This document shows, piece by piece, positions 1-6,921 of a stretch of DNA of 64,000 nt. Position numbers and translations under genes: made by a program. The notes under the pieces are model-generated. The model did not search any database. It saw nothing but the letters and a program-made list of their open reading frames with translations, and was not told the DNA's origin. This DNA comes from Pseudomonas alloputida (GTDB lineage Bacteria; Pseudomonadota; Gammaproteobacteria; Pseudomonadales; Pseudomonadaceae): positions 1,523,501 through 1,587,500 of the forward strand of contig NZ_CP128540.1 in the NCBI RefSeq assembly GCF_021283545.2, given 5' to 3'. The stretch's first letter is position 1. The number at the start of each line of letters is the position of its first letter.

Positions 1-421
1 CGAGCTGGTTGCGGCTGAGGCCGTCGATGACCTGTTCCGAGCTCAGCGAGCTGAGCTGAAAGTGCAGTTCGGGGTATTTTTCGCGCAGGGGCAGCAGCAG
101 GTGCATGGGGTTGAAACTGGCCAGCGGCACCGTGCCCAGGCGCAGGCTGCCGACCACCTGGCCACGGCAACTGGCAGCCTCGGCCTGCAGGCCGTCATGG
201 GCGGCGAGCAGGGTACGGGCCCAGGCCAGGATGCGCTCGCCGGCCTCGGTGAAACCTTCGAAGCGCTGGCCCCGCTTGACCAGCACCAGGTCCAGTTCGT
301 CTTCCAGGTTGCGCAGGCGCATGGACAGCGTCGGCTGGGTGATATGGCACAGCGCCGCCGCCTGGCCGAAGTGGCGGGTCTGGTCGAGGGCGATGAGGAA
401 CTTGAGCTGCTTGATGTCCAT
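1..421 (-). CDS. LysR-family transcriptional regulator (partial, N-terminal 140 residues)
   Basis: Only the start of this gene lies in the window; it runs off the left edge. The N-terminus (MDIKQLKFLIALDQTRHFGQ) is a typical LysR winged helix-turn-helix, with the recognition-helix segment CHITQPTLSMRLRNLE at about residues 29-44, followed by the linker and the first strand of the inducer-binding fold. LysR regulators bind DNA as tetramers and respond to a small ligand. It is divergent from moaB, with 141 bp between the start codons. A dyad in that gap (466-484) recurs upstream of the oxidoreductase gene at 4591, so this protein probably controls the molybdoenzyme genes. The ligand cannot be read from the sequence. 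Confidence 0.9.
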   Translation of the reverse strand, partial: MDIKQLKFLIALDQTRHFGQAAALCHITQPTLSMRLRNLEDELDLVLVKRGQRFEGFTEAGERILAWARTLLAAHDGLQAEAASCRGQVVGSLRLGTVPLASFNPMHLLLPLREKYPELHFQLSSLSSEQVIDGLSRNQL

Positions 422-464
422 GGAAGTGCCTGGCGTCTGGTTATGCAGACCTTAACCCACGTCT

Positions 465-484
465 GCGATAGATGTCATTGATCG
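465..484. promoter_or_regulatory. Candidate LysR operator in the lysR-moaB gap
   Basis: The imperfect palindrome CGATAGATGTCATTGATCG (466-484) is symmetric at 13 of 19 positions and lies midway between the divergent lysR and moaB starts. Its reverse complement matches 16 of 19 positions at 4450-4468, upstream of the formate dehydrogenase-like gene. LysR-type regulators normally bind such dyads in divergent promoters. Binding itself is inferred. Confidence 0.5.
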
Positions 485-498
485 GCCGGTACGTCATA

Positions 499-528
499 TC
501 GATTGGACGCCTCTGGGGGTATGCCTCT
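499..528 (+). promoter_or_regulatory. Candidate moaB promoter with a motif shared with the oxidoreductase gene
   Basis: The 13-mer TCGATTGGACGCC (499-511) occurs identically at 4524-4536, upstream of the oxidoreductase gene. It contains a TTGGAC -35-like hexamer; 17 bp further on lies a weak -10-like TCTAGC. The two hits are the only upstream copies noticed here. It may be the promoter core or part of a regulator site. Confidence 0.4.
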
Positions 529-562
529 AGCGTGGTGAAAATGCCCTTCAAGGAGCTTCACC

Positions 563-1081
563 GTGCGCGTCCAACTTGATGCGGTCTTCGTACCGCTGAA
601 CATCGCCGTGCTGACTGTCAGCGACACCCGTACCTACGACAACGATACTTCCGGCGCGCTGCTGGCCAACCGCTCGGTCGAGGTCGGTCACCGGCTGGTG
701 GCGCGAGCGCTGCTCAAGGACGACCTGTACAAGATCCGCGCTCAGGTGGCCAGCTGGATTGCCGATGAACAGGTGCAGGTGGTGCTGATCACCGGAGGTA
801 CCGGCTTTACCGGGCGCGACAGCACACCCGAAGCGGTCGAGTGCCTGCTGGACAAGCGTATCGATGGGTTCGGCGAGTTGTTCCGGGCATTGTCGATTCT
901 CGATATTGGCAGCTCGACCGTGCAGAGCCGGGCGTTGGCCGGGTTGTCCAACCGCACGTTGGTATGTTGCCTGCCGGGCTCGACCGGAGCCTGCCGCACC
1001 GCCTGGGAAGGCATTCTGGCCGAGCAGCTGGATGCACGGCACCGGCCATGCAACTTCGTCAAACACCTGTTGCCGATGTAG
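563..1081 (+). CDS. moaB: Molybdenum cofactor biosynthesis protein MoaB
   Basis: This is a 172-residue MoaB/MogA-family protein, which handles molybdopterin (adenylylation step) in molybdenum cofactor synthesis in the cytoplasm. The conserved VLTVSDTR strand is at about 16-23, the substrate-binding GGTGFTGRD loop at 78-86 and LPGSTGACR at 137-145. The start is GTG, preceded by AAGGAG (550-555) at good spacing. It sits near moaA and a molybdoenzyme gene, consistent with a dedicated cofactor supply. Its stop codon overlaps the first bases of a REP element that is interrupted by the IS110 insertion immediately downstream, so the gene is intact but has lost its normal 3' flank. Confidence 0.93.
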   Translation: MRVQLDAVFVPLNIAVLTVSDTRTYDNDTSGALLANRSVEVGHRLVARALLKDDLYKIRAQVASWIADEQVQVVLITGGTGFTGRDSTPEAVECLLDKRIDGFGELFRALSILDIGSSTVQSRALAGLSNRTLVCCLPGSTGACRTAWEGILAEQLDARHRPCNFVKHLLPM

Positions 1082-1229
1082 GAGATTCTATGGCCGGAGG
1101 CAAATTTTCAGTAAAAACGCCATCGGCCTCTCTCAGCAACCTCGAGGTACGAGTCAGCGTGCCAGAGAATTTCTCCCCAGCATTGGATACTGCCCGTCAG
1201 TTTGGGCGGGCTGCGTTGCAGCCCCAGCC

Positions 1230-2195
1230 TCAGCTGGCCGGCTTGGCACCTCCGGTATATATCTCGGGCTTCCAGTCGGCCTGATGCCTCATCAGGCCGA
1301 AGGCCAGCCGAGCCAAGCGACGTGCAAGGATCACCAAGGCTTGAGTGGTTTTCTTCCCCCGGGCTTGGTGATGGGCGTAATACTGCTTCCAGGTCGCGGT
1401 TCGACTGCCGCTCATCGAGGCGTTGTACAGGAGTCTACGGACCTCCGAGTCTCCGCGCTTGCTCAACTTCCCTCTGCCTGCCCATTTACCGGATTGGGAA
1501 ACCGTTACATCCATGCCTAGATAAGCGACAAAGGCGTCGCTGTTCTTGAACTCGCCGCGCATGAAGGACATCACCAGGCCGGCAGCCGTTAAGAAACCAA
1601 CACCCGGAAGCCTCTGAACACGGCGCATCTGATCGGAAAGCCCCGCCTTCTTGATCACCGCACGCAGCTGTTTTTCCAGCGAAAGCTCTATGCGTTCGAG
1701 CACTTCCTCAACACGTTTGAGTTCTGAGGCAAACAATTTGTCGCCCGACAAGCTCATCCGCAGCATGCCGCGCACTGCTACAAGTTTGGCGCGGCGGCGC
1801 AGCAGCACCTGGATCTCACGATGCCCGGCTGGTGGCGGAGTCCAAGCCTTCAAAGAGCCCCGCTCGTTGCTCAGGAAGCGGGCGAGCAAAGCGGCATCAT
1901 GGGCATCTGTTTTTGCCCGTATAGCAACACTTTCCCGGTACTTACTCAGCCTCAGCCCATCGATAACGTATACCGCGAAGCCCGCAGCATGGGCTTGCTC
2001 CGCCATTTCCATGTGATAGGTACTGGTCGCTTCGATGGCCAGCGCTGAGCCTTTGGGCAGCGTCTTGAGCCAGGCTTTGATTGCTTTCGGAGTGTTAGGG
2101 ATGGCGAAGGATTTGGTATTCGGAGCGGCTTGAATCACCAGTTCATCTTTGGAGGTGTCCACGCCAGCTTCGATTGGGATTGCGGACATTGCCAT
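1230..2195 (-). CDS. IS110-family transposase (DEDD recombinase)
   Basis: The 321-residue protein has both IS110 domains. The N-terminal RuvC-like DEDD domain shows GVDTSKDELV (D13), AIEAT (E55) and AKTDAHDAA (D97, D100). The C-terminal Transposase_20 domain shows QRLPGVGFLTAAGL at about 195-208 and a conserved serine region NASMSGSR at 258-265, expected to hold the nucleophile. No frameshift or stop is seen, so it looks active. The start is ATG with AAGGAG at 2205-2210; an internal ATG two codons later is possible. IS110 recombinases act with an RNA encoded in the element to join donor and target DNA at a dinucleotide core. Confidence 0.95.
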   Translation of the reverse strand: MAMSAIPIEAGVDTSKDELVIQAAPNTKSFAIPNTPKAIKAWLKTLPKGSALAIEATSTYHMEMAEQAHAAGFAVYVIDGLRLSKYRESVAIRAKTDAHDAALLARFLSNERGSLKAWTPPPAGHREIQVLLRRRAKLVAVRGMLRMSLSGDKLFASELKRVEEVLERIELSLEKQLRAVIKKAGLSDQMRRVQRLPGVGFLTAAGLVMSFMRGEFKNSDAFVAYLGMDVTVSQSGKWAGRGKLSKRGDSEVRRLLYNASMSGSRTATWKQYYAHHQARGKKTTQALVILARRLARLAFGLMRHQADWKPEIYTGGAKPAS

Positions 2196-2230
2196 GAATA
2201 GCTGCTCCTTGTAGCGTAGTGTGACTTGAA

Positions 2231-2384
2231 GGGCACACCCTGGCGCAGGCTTGCTTCTATTGTCGCTTGCTCGCGAGGCATTCCTTATCGGCGCTTGGGT
2301 GTTGAAAGGAGGAGGGGTGATTTCTCCTACGGTCTGTACTGCGCGAACAGTCAGAAGCGAGTTATGGCCCTCCTCCTCCCTTCA
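2231..2384 (-). ncRNA. Predicted bridge RNA of the IS110 element
   Basis: On the transposase strand the leader forms two stem-loops on paper. The first has a 13-bp stem (arms 2368-2380 and 2304-2316, two G.U pairs) around an internal loop closed by a hairpin (2334-2354). The 5' side of the loop carries AACTCGCT (2356-2363) and the 3' side GTAGGAG (2324-2330); these pair with the left and right halves of the interrupted REP. The second stem (ACACCC/GGGTGT plus GCGC/GCGC, 2291-2302 with 2235-2246) would be the donor loop. The order target loop then donor loop, upstream of the transposase, matches the IS110-group bridge RNA. Ends are approximate and expression is inferred. Confidence 0.7.
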
Positions 2385-2390
2385 AGTCCT

Positions 2391-2400
2391 ACCATACAAG
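2391..2400 (-). promoter_or_regulatory. Left-end half of a junction promoter (-10 of the bridge RNA)
   Basis: TATGGT (2396 to 2391 on the minus strand) is a -10-like hexamer at the transposase-proximal end. In a circular form of the element it would lie exactly 17 bp from TTGCCT (1103 to 1098, minus strand) at the other end, making a promoter that starts RNA around 2384. In the integrated form the base stretch at the -35 position is REP sequence with no good hexamer. Confidence 0.5.
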
Positions 2401-2422
2401 CGGGTTTACCCGCGAAGAGGCC
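2401..2422. repeat. Right part of the REP element split by the IS
   Basis: CGGGTTTACCCGCGAAGAGG is the major part of a REP; its missing GTAGGAG start is at 1078-1084 on the other side of the IS. Intact copies of the same sequence occur at, for example, 19680 and 61522. Confidence 0.9.
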
Positions 2423-2443
2423 AGAACAGGCAACCACCCACCG

Positions 2444-3343
2444 TCAGCTCAACACATACCCCACCGGCAACAAGGCGGGAGGCAGCTGCTGTTCCCCCAA
2501 TCCGGCCAGCACATCGCGCTCCACAGTCCGCACCATGGCATCGGTCGGCAGGTCGTTCTCATCGCGCCCGAACGGGTCTTCCAGCTCGTTGCCGATCGCA
2601 TCCAGCCCGAAGAACGTGTACCCCACGATGGTGGTGAACAGCGGTGCCAGCCAGCCCAGCGGCTCGGCCAGGGCAAACGGCAGCAGCAGGCAGAAAATGT
2701 AGATAGTACGGTGCAGCAGCAGCGTGTAGGGGAACGGCAAGGGAGTGCCCTTGATCCGCTCACAGGTGGCTTGCACTTCGGTCAGGCCCGCCAGGCGTTG
2801 CTCCAGCAGGTTGTAGCGCCATTCGCTGATCTGTTGCTGTGCGGCCAACCGTGAACAGTGTTCGCCGATTTCACGCAGGATGCCGTCGCACACATTGTGC
2901 GGGCTGATCGCATCGGCCCGGGCCAGCCACGGCCTGGCAGCTGCCCGTTCGTCCTCGTTACGCAGCCGGGCATTGAGTGCATGGGCGAAACCACACAGGT
3001 TGCGCAGCAGTTCGGTGCGCAGTGTTTCGTCGGTAATCACCACGCTTTCCCGCACGAACGAGCGGGTTTCGATAATCAGTTTGCCCCAGGCCTTGCGCCC
3101 CTCCCACCAACGGTCATAGCACGCGTTGTTGCGAAAGCTCATGAAGATCGACAGCGACAGGCCCAGCAAGGTGAACGGCGTGGCGCTGACCGGGTAGAAA
3201 TACGCCGGGTAATGCCGCTCGACCAGCACGATCAGCGCGGCCAGCAGTGTCACCATCAGGCAACGCAGGGCAATGCGTTTGACGATCGACCCCTTGAGGG
3301 TGAACAGCACGCGCAACACATCGGTGGAGGGTGGGACGATCAT
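2444..3343 (-). CDS. Bestrophin-like inner membrane protein (UPF0187/YneE family)
   Basis: The 299-residue protein has the bestrophin-family layout: a hydrophobic segment VKRIALRCLMVTLLAALIVL near residue 20-40, a second with GLSLSIFMSFRNNACYDRWWEGRKAWG, where the NxxxYDRWWEGR signature is characteristic, and two C-terminal membrane segments (YIFCLLLPFALAEPLGW and LFTTIVGYTFFGLDAIG) followed by ELEDPFG. Bacterial bestrophins are pentameric ion channels; the ion is not predictable here. The reading frame extends 66 codons upstream, but the ATG at 3343 fits the family length and avoids running into moaA, whose stop is 20 bp upstream. It is downstream of moaA on the same strand, probably cotranscribed; a molybdenum role is unproven. 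Confidence 0.85.
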   Translation of the reverse strand: MIVPPSTDVLRVLFTLKGSIVKRIALRCLMVTLLAALIVLVERHYPAYFYPVSATPFTLLGLSLSIFMSFRNNACYDRWWEGRKAWGKLIIETRSFVRESVVITDETLRTELLRNLCGFAHALNARLRNEDERAAARPWLARADAISPHNVCDGILREIGEHCSRLAAQQQISEWRYNLLEQRLAGLTEVQATCERIKGTPLPFPYTLLLHRTIYIFCLLLPFALAEPLGWLAPLFTTIVGYTFFGLDAIGNELEDPFGRDENDLPTDAMVRTVERDVLAGLGEQQLPPALLPVGYVLS

Positions 3344-3363
3344 GGAAGTCCAGAGACGGCTGC

Positions 3364-4368
3364 TCAGCCGCCGGTCATGTTCATGAAGCGCAGGATCTGC
3401 ACATCGCCACCGACTTCGAAATGATGGCGATAGGGCTTGAGGTGCAGCGAGTCGCGAATGGCCTTTTCCAGGCGTTCGGGGTTGCCCGGGTGGGCGCGCA
3501 GCACGTGCTTGAGGTCTACCGAGTGTTCGTTGCCCAGGCACAGCAGCAGGCGGCCTTCGACGGTGAGGCGCACGCGGTTGCAGGTGGCGCAGAAGTTGTG
3601 GCTGTGTGGGGAAATGAAGCCGACCCGGGTGTTCGCGGCTTCGGCCAGGCGCCAGTAGCGGGCCGGCCCCATGGACGACTCGGTCGATTCGACCAGCGTG
3701 AACTGCTCGGCCAGGCGTGCCCGTACTTCATCGCTGGAGCAGAACGATTCGCCACGTTCATGCTCGCTTATCACCCCCAGCGGCATTTCCTCGATGAAGG
3801 TGATGTCCAGCTCGCGTTCGATGGCAAAGCGCACCAGATCGACCAGTTCATGGTCGTTGCGGCCTTTGAGTACCACGCAGTTGAGCTTGGTGCGTTTGAA
3901 ACCGGCCTGGCGTGCGGCGTCGATGCCGGCGATTACCTGGGCTAGGTCGCCGGTGCGGGTCAGCTGCTTGAAACGGTCGGCATCCAGGCTATCCAGGCTG
4001 ATGTTCAGGCGTGTCACCCCGGCGTCGAACAGCGGCTGAGCCAGGCGCCCGAGTTGCGAGCCGTTGCTGGTCAGGCACAGCTCGCGCAGGCCGGGCAGGG
4101 CGGCGATGCGCCCGCACAGGTCGACGATGCCCTGGCGTACCAGTGGCTCGCCACCCGTCAGGCGGATCTTTCGGGTGCCCAGCGCGACGAAGCGTTCGGC
4201 CACCTGGAACAGTTCTTCGAGGCTGAGGATTTGCTGGCGCGGCAGAAACTGCATGTCTTCGGCCATGCAGTACACGCAACGGAAGTCACAGCGGTCGGTG
4301 ACCGACATCCGCAGGTAGTCGATTTTCCGGTTGAAGCCGTCGATCAGGGCCCGGCTGTTCTGTTCCAC
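3364..4368 (-). CDS. moaA: GTP 3',8-cyclase MoaA
   Basis: This 334-residue radical SAM enzyme makes the first molybdenum-cofactor precursor from GTP (3',8-cyclisation, then cPMP via MoaC). The SAM cluster cysteines are C27, C31 and C34 ([10 protein letters not shown]), the GGEP strand is at 72-75, and the second 4Fe-4S site is C260, C263 and C277 ([11 protein letters not shown]...LLLC). The functionally required C-terminal Gly-Gly is present (NMTGG). It is transcribed away from the oxidoreductase gene at 4591, with 222 bp between them. Pseudomonads often carry more than one moaA; this copy is linked to a specific molybdoenzyme and may serve it preferentially. Confidence 0.96.
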
Positions 4369-4590
4369 GTTCGCACTCGAATGGGTTGGGACATGACTCC
4401 AAGCTATAACCTGGCCGCAAGGCCGTCAAATTGCTTTGCCTGACCGGTTGATCGATGGCCTCTATCGCTTGGCATAGCCTCTGGCAGCCATGATCGAAAC
4501 CGCTTATCACGCCGTAAGATCTTTCGATTGGACGCCCCTTCCCACGCTCCATAGGCTGGAAAAAAGCATCGAAGCGTGAGGATTCATCGC
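4369..4590. promoter_or_regulatory. Divergent promoter region between moaA and the oxidoreductase gene
   Basis: No credible gene is seen in these 222 bp. GATCGATGGCCTCTATCGC (4450-4468) is the second copy of the LysR-type dyad found at 465-483 (opposite orientation, 16 of 19 identical). TCGATTGGACGCC (4524-4536) is the second copy of the moaB promoter motif; its TTGGAC is followed 17 bp on by ATAGGC. GAGGA at 4578-4582 is the ribosome binding site for the ATG at 4591. Confidence 0.5.
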
Positions 4591-6921
4591 ATGAGCCAGG
4601 ACGAACACATCAGGGACTACAAGGGCGCCGCTGCCGGCTGGGGGGCGCTCAAAAGCGTGACCAAGAGCTGGCTGGGCAGCGACAACGCCTTCAAGAACCT
4701 GCGGGCCATGCTCAAGACCAACCAGAACGGCGGTTTCGACTGCCCCGGCTGTGCCTGGGGCGAGTCGCCGGAAAGCGACATGGTCAAGTTCTGCGAAAAC
4801 GGCGCCAAGGCGGTCAACTGGGAAGCCACCGGCCGCTCGGTCGACCCGGCTTTCTTCGCCAAATACAGCGTCAGCGCGCTGAAGGAGCAGACCGACTACT
4901 GGCTTGAATACCAGGGCCGCCTCACCCACCCGATGCGCTACGACGCCGCCACCGACCACTATGTCGAAACCACCTGGCAGGAGGCCTTCGAGCTGGTCGC
5001 CAGGCACCTGCGTGCGCTGCAGTCGCCGGATGAAGCCGAATTCTACACCTCGGGCCGGGCCAGCAACGAAGCGGCGTTCCTTTACCAGCTGTTCGTGCGT
5101 GCCTACGGCACCAACAACTTCCCGGATTGCTCGAACATGTGCCACGAAGCCAGCGGCGCGGGCATGTCGGAAACCCTCGGGGTGGGCAAGGGCACCGTGG
5201 TGTTCCACGATCTGGAGCTGGCCGACGCGATATTCGTCATCGGGCAGAACCCCGGCACCAACCACCCGCGCATGCTCGAACCCCTGCGCGAAGCGGTCAA
5301 GCGTGGCGCCCAGGTCGTCTGCTTCAACCCGCTGAAAGAGCGTGGCCTTGAGCGCTTCCAGCACCCGCAGCACCCGTTCGAAATGCTCAGCAACGGCTCC
5401 GAGCCGACCTCCAGCGCCTACTTCCGCCCGGCCTTGGGTGGGGACATGGCGGCAATGCGCGGTATTGCCAAGTACTTGTTGCAATGGGAGCGCGAGGCGC
5501 AGGCCAAGGGCGAGCCGGCGGTGTTCGACCATGCCTTCATCGCCGAGCACACCAGCGGCGTCGACGATTACCTGGCGGCGGTGGACGCCACGTCCTGGGA
5601 GCACATCGTCAAACAGTCGGGCTTGACCCTGGCCGAGATCGAGCTGGCCGCCCGCATGTACCGCAAGGCCGAGCGGGTCATCATGTGCTGGGCCATGGGC
5701 GTCACCCAGCACCGCCATTCGGTGCCGACCGTGCAGGAAATCGTCAACCTGCAGCTGCTGCGTGGCAACGTCGGCAAGCCCGGCGCAGGCCTGTCGCCGG
5801 TGCGTGGCCACAGTAACGTGCAGGGTGACCGTACCATGGGCATTGACGAGAAACCCTCGGCGGCACTACTCGATGCCATCGAGCAACGTTTCCAGTTCAG
5901 TGTGCCGCGTACCCATGGGCACAACGCAGTGTTGGCGATCAAGGCTATGGAAGAGGGGCGGGCCAAGGTGTTCATCGGCCTGGGCGGCAACTTTGCCCAA
6001 GCCACCCCGGACACCGCGCGCACCCACGCGGCGCTGCAGAACTGCGCGTTGACCGTGCAGATTTCCACCAAGCTTAACCGCTCGCACCTGATCACCGGCC
6101 GCGATGCGCTGATCCTGCCGTGCCTGGGCCGTACCGAAATCGACCTGCAGGCCGAAGGGCCGCAAGGCGTGACCGTGGAGGACACCTTCAGCATGGTGCA
6201 CATCTCCAATGGCCAGTTGCGCCCGCGCTCGCCGCATATGCGCTCGGAGCCGTGGATCATTGCCGGTATGGCCAAGGCCACGCTGGGCAACCAGCCGATC
6301 GACTGGGAGTACGCGGTGGCCGATTACAACCGCATTCGCGACATGATCGCTGACGTGATTCCGGGCTTTACCGGTTTCAATGAACGCTTGAACAGCCCCG
6401 GCGGGTTCCACCTTGGCAACAATGCCGCCGATCGCAACTTCCGCACGGCCACGGGCAAGGCCCGCTTCATGCCCCACGCGCTGCCCGAGGAACTGGTCAA
6501 CGCCAAGGTACTGGCCCGTGGTGACAAGCCCGACCTGATTTTGCAGACCCTGCGTTCGCACGATCAGTACAACACCACCCTGTATGGCCTGGACGACCGC
6601 TACCGTGGGGTGTTCGGCCTGCGTGAAGTGGTGTTTGTCAACGAAGCCGACATCCGTCGCCTGGGCTTCGAACCGGGTGAGCAGGTGGACCTTGTGTCGC
6701 TGTGGGAGGATGGCGTGGAGCGGCGGGTGTCGGGATTCCGCCTGGTGGCGTATGACGTGCCCGAGGGGCAGGCGGCGGCGTATTACCCGGAAACCAACCC
6801 GTTGGTACCGCTGGAAAGTTATGGTGAGGGGACCTATACCCCGACCTCGAAATTCGTGGCGATCAAGGTCGAAAAGGCCAAGGCGGGGAACCGCATTGCG
6901 GCGGTGTTGGCCTCGGATTGA
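4591..6921 (+). CDS. FdhF/YdeP-family molybdopterin oxidoreductase (formate dehydrogenase-like alpha subunit)
   Basis: The 776-residue protein belongs to the bis-MGD molybdopterin oxidoreductases of the YdeP type. Near the N-terminus there is only a CPGC motif (C51, C54), lacking the full four-cysteine 4Fe-4S signature of classic formate dehydrogenases. The active-site region reads DCSNMCHEASGAGMSE (C180, C184), where a cysteine replaces the selenocysteine of FdhF. The C-terminal 150 residues form the dinucleotide-binding domain. Substrate is not certain; E. coli YdeP is linked to acid resistance. The chosen ATG has GAGGA at spacing 8; a GTG at 4576 is in frame but poorly placed. moaA and moaB flank it, and LysR probably regulates it. 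Confidence 0.9.
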   Translation: MSQDEHIRDYKGAAAGWGALKSVTKSWLGSDNAFKNLRAMLKTNQNGGFDCPGCAWGESPESDMVKFCENGAKAVNWEATGRSVDPAFFAKYSVSALKEQTDYWLEYQGRLTHPMRYDAATDHYVETTWQEAFELVARHLRALQSPDEAEFYTSGRASNEAAFLYQLFVRAYGTNNFPDCSNMCHEASGAGMSETLGVGKGTVVFHDLELADAIFVIGQNPGTNHPRMLEPLREAVKRGAQVVCFNPLKERGLERFQHPQHPFEMLSNGSEPTSSAYFRPALGGDMAAMRGIAKYLLQWEREAQAKGEPAVFDHAFIAEHTSGVDDYLAAVDATSWEHIVKQSGLTLAEIELAARMYRKAERVIMCWAMGVTQHRHSVPTVQEIVNLQLLRGNVGKPGAGLSPVRGHSNVQGDRTMGIDEKPSAALLDAIEQRFQFSVPRTHGHNAVLAIKAMEEGRAKVFIGLGGNFAQATPDTARTHAALQNCALTVQISTKLNRSHLITGRDALILPCLGRTEIDLQAEGPQGVTVEDTFSMVHISNGQLRPRSPHMRSEPWIIAGMAKATLGNQPIDWEYAVADYNRIRDMIADVIPGFTGFNERLNSPGGFHLGNNAADRNFRTATGKARFMPHALPEELVNAKVLARGDKPDLILQTLRSHDQYNTTLYGLDDRYRGVFGLREVVFVNEADIRRLGFEPGEQVDLVSLWEDGVERRVSGFRLVAYDVPEGQAAAYYPETNPLVPLESYGEGTYTPTSKFVAIKVEKAKAGNRIAAVLASD

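Follow-up and report, generated by a model that had tools for sequence, protein, structure and literature searches.

What directs an insertion element into one particular kind of genomic repeat is the question raised by a 1.3-kb, single-gene element that interrupts a REP in the window analyzed here, a stretch of 64,000 nucleotides from Pseudomonas alloputida. In the case of IS621, a bridge RNA has been described that guides entry into E. coli REPs (PMC11208160). A first-pass annotation of the window had proposed that the leader preceding the transposase gene is the guide RNA of this element as well, with two guide stretches that match the REP in which it sits. Below, the element and its copies, the leader, the relatives of the element in other genomes and the competing explanations are considered in turn.

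The element and its insertion sites

The element and its surroundings comprise the following features (window coordinates).

1085..2398, minus strand: IS110-group element between its CT cores, common to six copies, which diverge outside the REP
2399..2400, minus strand: left CT core, from sequence reading and copy comparison
1083..1084, minus strand: right CT core, from sequence reading and copy comparison
1230..2195, minus strand: DEDD recombinase (IS110 transposase) of 321 amino acids, from the open reading frame and profile matches
2401..2434, minus strand: left part of the interrupted REP (...TTCGCGGGTAAACCCG), which matches REPs elsewhere in the genome
1078..1082, minus strand: right part of the interrupted REP (CCTAC; with the core, CTCCTAC), from sequence reading and copy comparison

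Judged from its sequence, 1085-2398 is an IS110-group element of the IS621 type. It begins with TGTATGG... at its left end and closes with ...CATAGAAT at its right end. The recombinase contains the Pfam domains DEDD_Tnp_IS110 (the RuvC-like N domain) and Transposase_20 (the C domain), and scores 183 bits, against a cutoff of 140, with the NCBIfam family NF033542 ('IS110 family RNA-guided transposase'). The solved structures that it resembles include IS621 chain 8wt6_A (phmmer, E 7.4e-23) and the ISCro4 transposase. Domain, family and structure matches therefore all place it in the IS110 group. The layout of the element agrees with this placement, with 203 nt of noncoding sequence upstream of the transposase gene versus 145 nt downstream, and with a covarying RNA on the upstream side, as in IS110-group elements.

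Six copies of the element, 100% identical over at least 1,339 bases, were detected in its own genome (one contig, 6.44 Mb). Each has TTCGCGGGTAAACCCGCT on its left side and CTCCTAC on its right, with divergence beyond, and all are inserted in REPs at AAACCCG^CT...CT^CCTAC. Listing the genomic copies had been suggested as a check of the guide proposal, and it turned out in favor of it: each of the six sites is complementary to both guides. The 14-mer AAACCCG-CT-CCTAC accounts for 212 of the 645 CCCGCTCCNAC sites in the genome. A mirror REP (GTAGGAGCGGGT...) is present in the right flanks of two copies (L002 and L003), and the window flanks, when joined, can be aligned through the junction with intact REPs found in this genome (e.g., 98% over query positions 19-63). 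CTCCTAC thus belongs to the REP and not to the element.

Comparison of the joined flanks with 57 genomes, 40 of which matched (largely through the flanking gene or REPs), did not reveal an orthologous empty site. The one match inspected, L183, has REPs near the gene end, but at another place, and L180-L190 could not be anchored. Orphan guide RNAs were not detected in the element's own genome, where the covariance model described below found six leaders only, at the places of the six full copies.

The right half of the interrupted REP (1078-1084; plus-strand GTAGGAG) covers the stop codon (1079-1081) with which a 172-residue open reading frame (563-1081), presumably moaB, closes, and the element therefore ends within a few bases of the end of that gene.

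Guides and fold of the leader

The leader was defined as the 203 nt between the core and the ATG (2196-2398). Its target-recognition part and closing helix are as follows.

2356..2363, minus strand: left target guide AACTCGCT, which pairs with AACCCGCT at the six own sites and changes with the target in relatives
2324..2330, minus strand: right target guide GTAGGAG, the complement of CTCCTAC at the six own sites, replaced by GTGGGAG where the nearest relatives sit in CTCCCAC
2224..2387, minus strand: closing helix P1 (2378-2387 with 2224-2233), from the MFE fold
2307..2377, minus strand: target-loop stem P2 (2368-2377 with 2307-2316), from the folds; 13 bp if the loop is folded alone
2333..2355, minus strand: hairpin inside the target loop, with 8 model pairs

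The positions given for both guides in the first-pass annotation proved to be right on the minus strand. As it had stated, the left guide equals the left target half except for one U.G, forming seven Watson-Crick pairs and this wobble with AACCCGCT (the next base outward is mismatched, T against A), and the right guide is an exact complement, with seven of seven positions paired. Both guides include the CT core, the left one addressing the bottom strand of the target and the right one the top strand, and they stand in the left-then-right order of the IS110 group. When the 203-nt leader was subjected to 20,000 dinucleotide shuffles, both guides occurred in this order, with the same tolerances, in three of them; the left guide alone was found in 580 and the right guide alone in 415.

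The target loop (2302-2382) folds at -35.8 kcal/mol with a z-score of -4.6, and the whole leader (2196-2398) has a z-score of -5.5; in either case none of 200 shuffles was as low. A stem of 13 bp (2368-2380 with 2304-2316) had been proposed, and it is recovered in the MFE fold of 2302-2382; within the whole-leader fold, its three outer G's join the longer closing helix and the stem is left with 10 bp. The inner hairpin had been described as having 7 bp, which needs correction, as the fold gives nine pairs around a bulged A (eight in the covariance model). A scan of window positions 1-6000 against Rfam at the gathering threshold gave no match.

Covariance folding across relatives, a further check named with the original proposal, supported the structure. 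A covariance model from 48 leaders was used to realign 51 matches, an alignment that is fitted to the structure and so favors it. Both sides change in 21 of the 39 pairs, in 104 cells, and neither number was reached in any of 500 shuffles; the count of further pair types was reached by two of the 500. If the partner is slid out of register, at most 25 double-changed cells are obtained versus 104 in register. By helix, both sides change in 4 of the 10 pairs of P1 (89.9% of cells paired), in 7 of the 10 pairs of P2 (84.7%) and in four of the eight model pairs of the target-loop hairpin (95.1%). RNAalifold, run on a MAFFT alignment, found double changes in 3 of 29 pairs, a low number that we took to reflect misaligned stems, and the model-based alignment was used instead. 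The leader contains two internal loops within a conserved fold, as bridge RNAs do, the outer stem of the donor arm being its weakest helix (three pairs kept in the model, 68.3% of cells paired).

The remaining features concern the donor side and a possible promoter.

2235..2302, minus strand: donor arm (outer stem 2297-2302/2235-2240, inner stem 2291-2294/2243-2246, hairpin 2263-2276), from the fold, conservation and pair counts
2280..2288, minus strand: putative left donor guide AUAAGGAAU, which resembles the donor ATAGAAT plus two extra bases, with the core unpaired; a reading of invariant columns
2250..2260, minus strand: putative right donor guide AUA-GAAG-CAAG, for which discontiguous pairing with the donor CTTGTAT is possible
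2391..2396, minus strand: candidate -10 element TATGGT of a circle-junction promoter, whose -35 element would be TTGCCT (1098-1103), 17 bp away in the circle, as read from the sequence

In the 48 leaders, AUA and CAAG of the donor arm are invariant or nearly so, and AUA...GAAU and AUA-GAAG-CAAG are largely invariant. These stretches could pair with the joined ends of the element, ATAGAAT-CT-TGTAT, a suggestion that draws on conservation, which leaves no variation in which covariation could appear. Joining of the ends would also create a candidate circle-junction promoter, TTGCCT-17-TATGGT. TATGNT was present at the -10 position in 148 of 148 parsed loci (the parser required TAT), and TTG at the -35 position in 54 of 148.

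Guides and targets in related elements

We searched 398 genomes of the same genus with the transposase; 74 matched at E 1e-20, and at most five places per genome were taken up. Together with the six own copies and two MAG loci, 153 loci were tried, of which 148 were readable, in 47 genomes including the element's own, and five (L041, L061, L062, L123 and L142) were left unparsed. Since a left end of CTTGTAT was a condition of parsing (that of L123 is CTTGGAT), the uniformity of the left ends is in part built in; the right end ATAGAATCT occurred in all 148 parsed loci. The two MAG loci, both distant, came from a search of genome contigs, in which near kin may be left out. No relative was found in the plasmid records searched. 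Apparent stop codons within the matches of relatives were found to lie outside the tblastn alignment in eight of nine re-read loci, and that of L049, at query position 315 of 321, is a normal gene end.

Nineteen distinct left guides were observed at the 148 sites. Of the 14 guide positions per site, none was unpaired at 73 sites, one at 52, two at 10 and three to five at 13; at most one was therefore unpaired at 125 of the 148 sites. Left guides paired with their own targets at 6.168 of 7 positions, compared with 5.486 (sd 0.074, maximum 5.743) in 2,000 guide swaps among the 47 genomes, and right guides at 6.949 compared with 6.870, the observed value being reached in one of 2,000 swaps; both tests ignore relatedness.

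Guide and target changed together in close and distant kin. The nearest relatives, L032 and L033 (92% and 74% of residues), have GTGGGAG for GTAGGAG, and their sites read CTCCCAC for CTCCTAC. GTGGGAG occurs with CTCCCAC in the nearest kin G390 (92% of amino acids) and in G009, and GTAGGAG with CTCCTAC in G000 and G094; the latter, a distant relative with five copies read, also has AGTTCGCT with AGTTCGCT. On a quick recombinase tree, at least seven changes of the guide base at position -3 were counted over 39 rows, and two changes of the right guide, with its target altered accordingly, over 48 rows. When independent pairs are drawn from the tree, two to six per trait, the target moves in the same way as the guide or stays, and never moves in the opposite way; the pairs are too few for any of these comparisons to be significant.

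Departures from complementarity were concentrated at particular places. The left-guide base facing the core C was mismatched at 94 of 148 sites (mostly A) and that facing the core T at 34 of 148, such mismatches being frequent outside the window's clade, with the outer positions largely kept. The right guide of G080, GTGAGAG, has an A.C with CTCCCAC at five of five sites. Among the 13 sites with three or more unpaired positions, nine are in G128 and G383, two in G214, and one each in G186 and G091. The left guide of G128 and G383 (L046, L050 and sister copies) reads AGCTCG-TCA and is apparently one base longer, and its match to AGGCTCGCT needs a shift by one position.

Several loci were unusual in their arrangement. 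The leader of L051 (G091), at only 125 nt, has no donor arm, and its single site fits the guide poorly. At L055 (G186), the left flank is not a REP; it reads CTCCCACATTTGGTAGCT, the same as the sequence after the right end, as would be expected after a move of the element next to its own right flank or after collapse of a tandem. L084 (G066) is a direct tandem of two copies with a spacing of 1,352 bp, and both copies have a full leader match. Among the low-scoring matches, seven leaders were inspected that come from genomes in which no transposase was listed. For L226, L229, L240 and L252, the stretch ends within about 300 bases after the leader start; L235 and L239 retain transposase pieces of 38 and 33 residues; and at L227 no transposase match was present at E 1e-3 in the stretch examined. 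These candidates for orphan guide RNAs look like remnants or cut stretches. Two of them, L227 (G299) and L239 (G065), come from single-contig genomes, and in both the leader remnant occupies a REP-like site.

The main objection to these results is that guide and target could match merely through a shared dependence on the host; it is answered by comparing the sites used with the REPs available. We counted CTCGCTCCCAC and CCCGCTCCCAC in 30 of the 47 genomes and kept the 28 with CTCG or CCCG guides (G296 and G367 belong to neither guide class). These 28 genomes have 86 sites; eight of them, lacking both REP variants, were set aside (three in G139, two in G214 and one each in G004, G186 and G274). 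The variant specified by the guide was found at 74 of 78 sites, whereas the REP pools of the individual genomes predict 59.5 (0 of 100,000 simulations). In mixed pools, where each variant makes up 20% or more, 28 of 31 sites match the guide versus 16.0 expected. The four sites that depart from the guide lie in G100 (two), G214 and G139 (one each). The guide class also corresponds to the host's commoner variant in 24 of 28 genomes (Fisher p 0.00015, uncorrected for relatedness). Regarding the right guide, sites of the types CGCTCCTAC and CGCTCCCAC number 418 and 358 in the window genome (GTAGGAG), 268 and 1,452 in G390 (GTGGGAG), and 243 and 163 in G094 (GTAGGAG). The counts in G009, 109 and 150, are below those of reversed-pattern controls (219 and 175), and its pool therefore says nothing.

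Mechanism, alternatives and known systems

The leader very probably encodes the target loop of a bridge RNA. That a leader-encoded RNA, transcribed in the sense direction, guides this IS621-type element into REPs is the best explanation of the data, and we hold it with high confidence. Its basis is the anatomy of the element, the site specificity of six copies, guide-target covariation, the choice among REP variants and the covarying helices; six sites, guide-target changes, pool choice and helices likewise uphold the initial claim that the leader is the element's guide RNA. As to the mechanism, we infer that a bridge RNA running from about 2388 to about 2212 would be transcribed in the sense of the recombinase gene and bound by the recombinase, and that the guides in its second loop would address the ends of the element itself in their joined form (ATAGAAT-CT-TGTAT). 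Together, recombinase and RNA would excise the element as a circle, and the circle would then be recombined at CT into REPs reading AAACCCG-CT-CCTAC.

An antisense transcript of the leader could instead be the functional RNA, like Asr9 of ISPpu9, either with guides in mirror order or acting only on translation of the transposase. We regard this as improbable, and the evidence on it is divided. The 5'-UTR of ISPpu9 is reported to have a stable antisense sRNA of about 180 nt (PMC8450116), and in our set 46 of 48 leaders reach a lower folding energy when read antisense, while in 40 of 48 the antisense z-score is the stronger one (mean -4.74, compared with -3.72 for sense). Within the fitted stems, A.C cells outnumber G.U cells (60 versus 35 in alignment A2, in which stems are partly out of register), which is the wrong direction for a sense RNA. 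However, the guide order of the IS110 group arises on the sense strand, the orders of IS1111 and IS110 elements being reported as different (PMC11187229), and in the window's clade (L001, L032 and L033) it is the sense strand that has the stronger z-score. Guide-target departures of the wobble type also lean to sense, numbering 27 versus 13 among combinations in which no more than two positions are unpaired (p 0.04) and 33 versus 23 over all 73 combinations (p 0.23). At position -3 there are 18 sense and 11 antisense wobbles, and nine of the 11 come from G128 and G383, in which the guide is seemingly shifted. Since the antisense strand folds more strongly in most relatives, the strand assignment rests on guide order and precedent; the sequences themselves support the sense strand mildly, with part of the evidence pointing the other way. 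By analogy with ISPpu9, an antisense RNA may be made as well.

These genomes are rich in REP sequence, and the right guide GTAGGAG is the opposite strand of the REP, which would fit a recombinase protein that recognizes the REP directly and a leader that resembles the target merely through a captured REP piece. This we consider barely credible, because guide letters follow target letters among close and distant recombinases, the guide predicts the REP variant used within one genome, and the guides stand at fixed places in a covarying fold. It is only a little less improbable that the leader is a 5'-UTR for translational control and nothing else, with guide matches due to chance or to ancestry shared with host REPs: the rarity of both guides in shuffled leaders (3 of 20,000) and the covariation and pool tests argue against it. 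Its attraction is that the leader start pairs, in the predicted fold, with CCCTTCAAGT about 30-40 bases ahead of the start codon, and that the leader of ISPpu9 is reported to control translation (PMC8450116). Translational control could, of course, coexist with guiding.

The element is a well-supported further case of an IS110 element that enters REPs under RNA guidance, a mechanism already published, as is the natural shift of an element to a new target through a changed guide, reported for ISEc11/ISXne4 (PMC11187229). No title on guide changes across Pseudomonas REPs was found among the open-access titles searched; the dataset behind PMC11208160 may contain such elements. We lean slightly toward the view that, genus-wide, these elements rewrite their guides one letter at a time in step with the host's REP family, with the donor loop and ends fixed. 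If true, base pairing would be the only link between the evolution of REPs and the targeting of the elements, and REP pools would serve as natural in vivo assays of single-nucleotide guide specificity. The natural dataset (148 sites, 47 genomes, 19 distinct left guides) separates guide choice from target availability, allows one to ask how guides get rewritten as host repeats change, and offers candidate bridge-RNA systems for programmable insertion.

Among known systems, IS621 as described in PMC11208160 shares with the window element an IS110-group DEDD recombinase, a two-loop leader RNA, a left followed by a right target guide with a CT core, and a REP target. A discontiguous right donor guide and a circle-junction promoter are described for IS621 in the same paper, and such a donor guide is possible in the window element too. 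In contrast, the guides and the REP are different, the recombinases are distantly alike (E 7.4e-23), and the window RNA is predicted from sequence. Insertion of ISPpu9 and ISPpu10 into REPs was reported in 2006 (PMC1525189), and ISPpu10 is one of six elements for which an extended-data legend from 2024 gives predicted guides, both target and donor (PMC11208160). According to the 2006 report, ISPpu10 has a REP target, a 2-bp direct repeat and the same position in the REP as ISPpu9 (PMC1525189); the window element may be ISPpu10 or near kin. ISPpu9 of P. putida KT2440 (Asr9/Ssr9) is similar in its IS110 family membership, insertion into P. putida REPs and structured 5'-UTR, and differs in its repeat, AG, and its 5'-UTR of 244 nt (PMC8450116), whereas the window element has CT (transposase strand) and 203 nt from core to ATG. 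Finally, the seekRNAs reported for ISEc21 of IS110 and for IS1111-family elements likewise have two short stretches matching both target strands; in IS1111 elements, unlike here, the RNA lies downstream of the transposase gene, subterminal inverted repeats are present and the guide order is different (PMC11187229).
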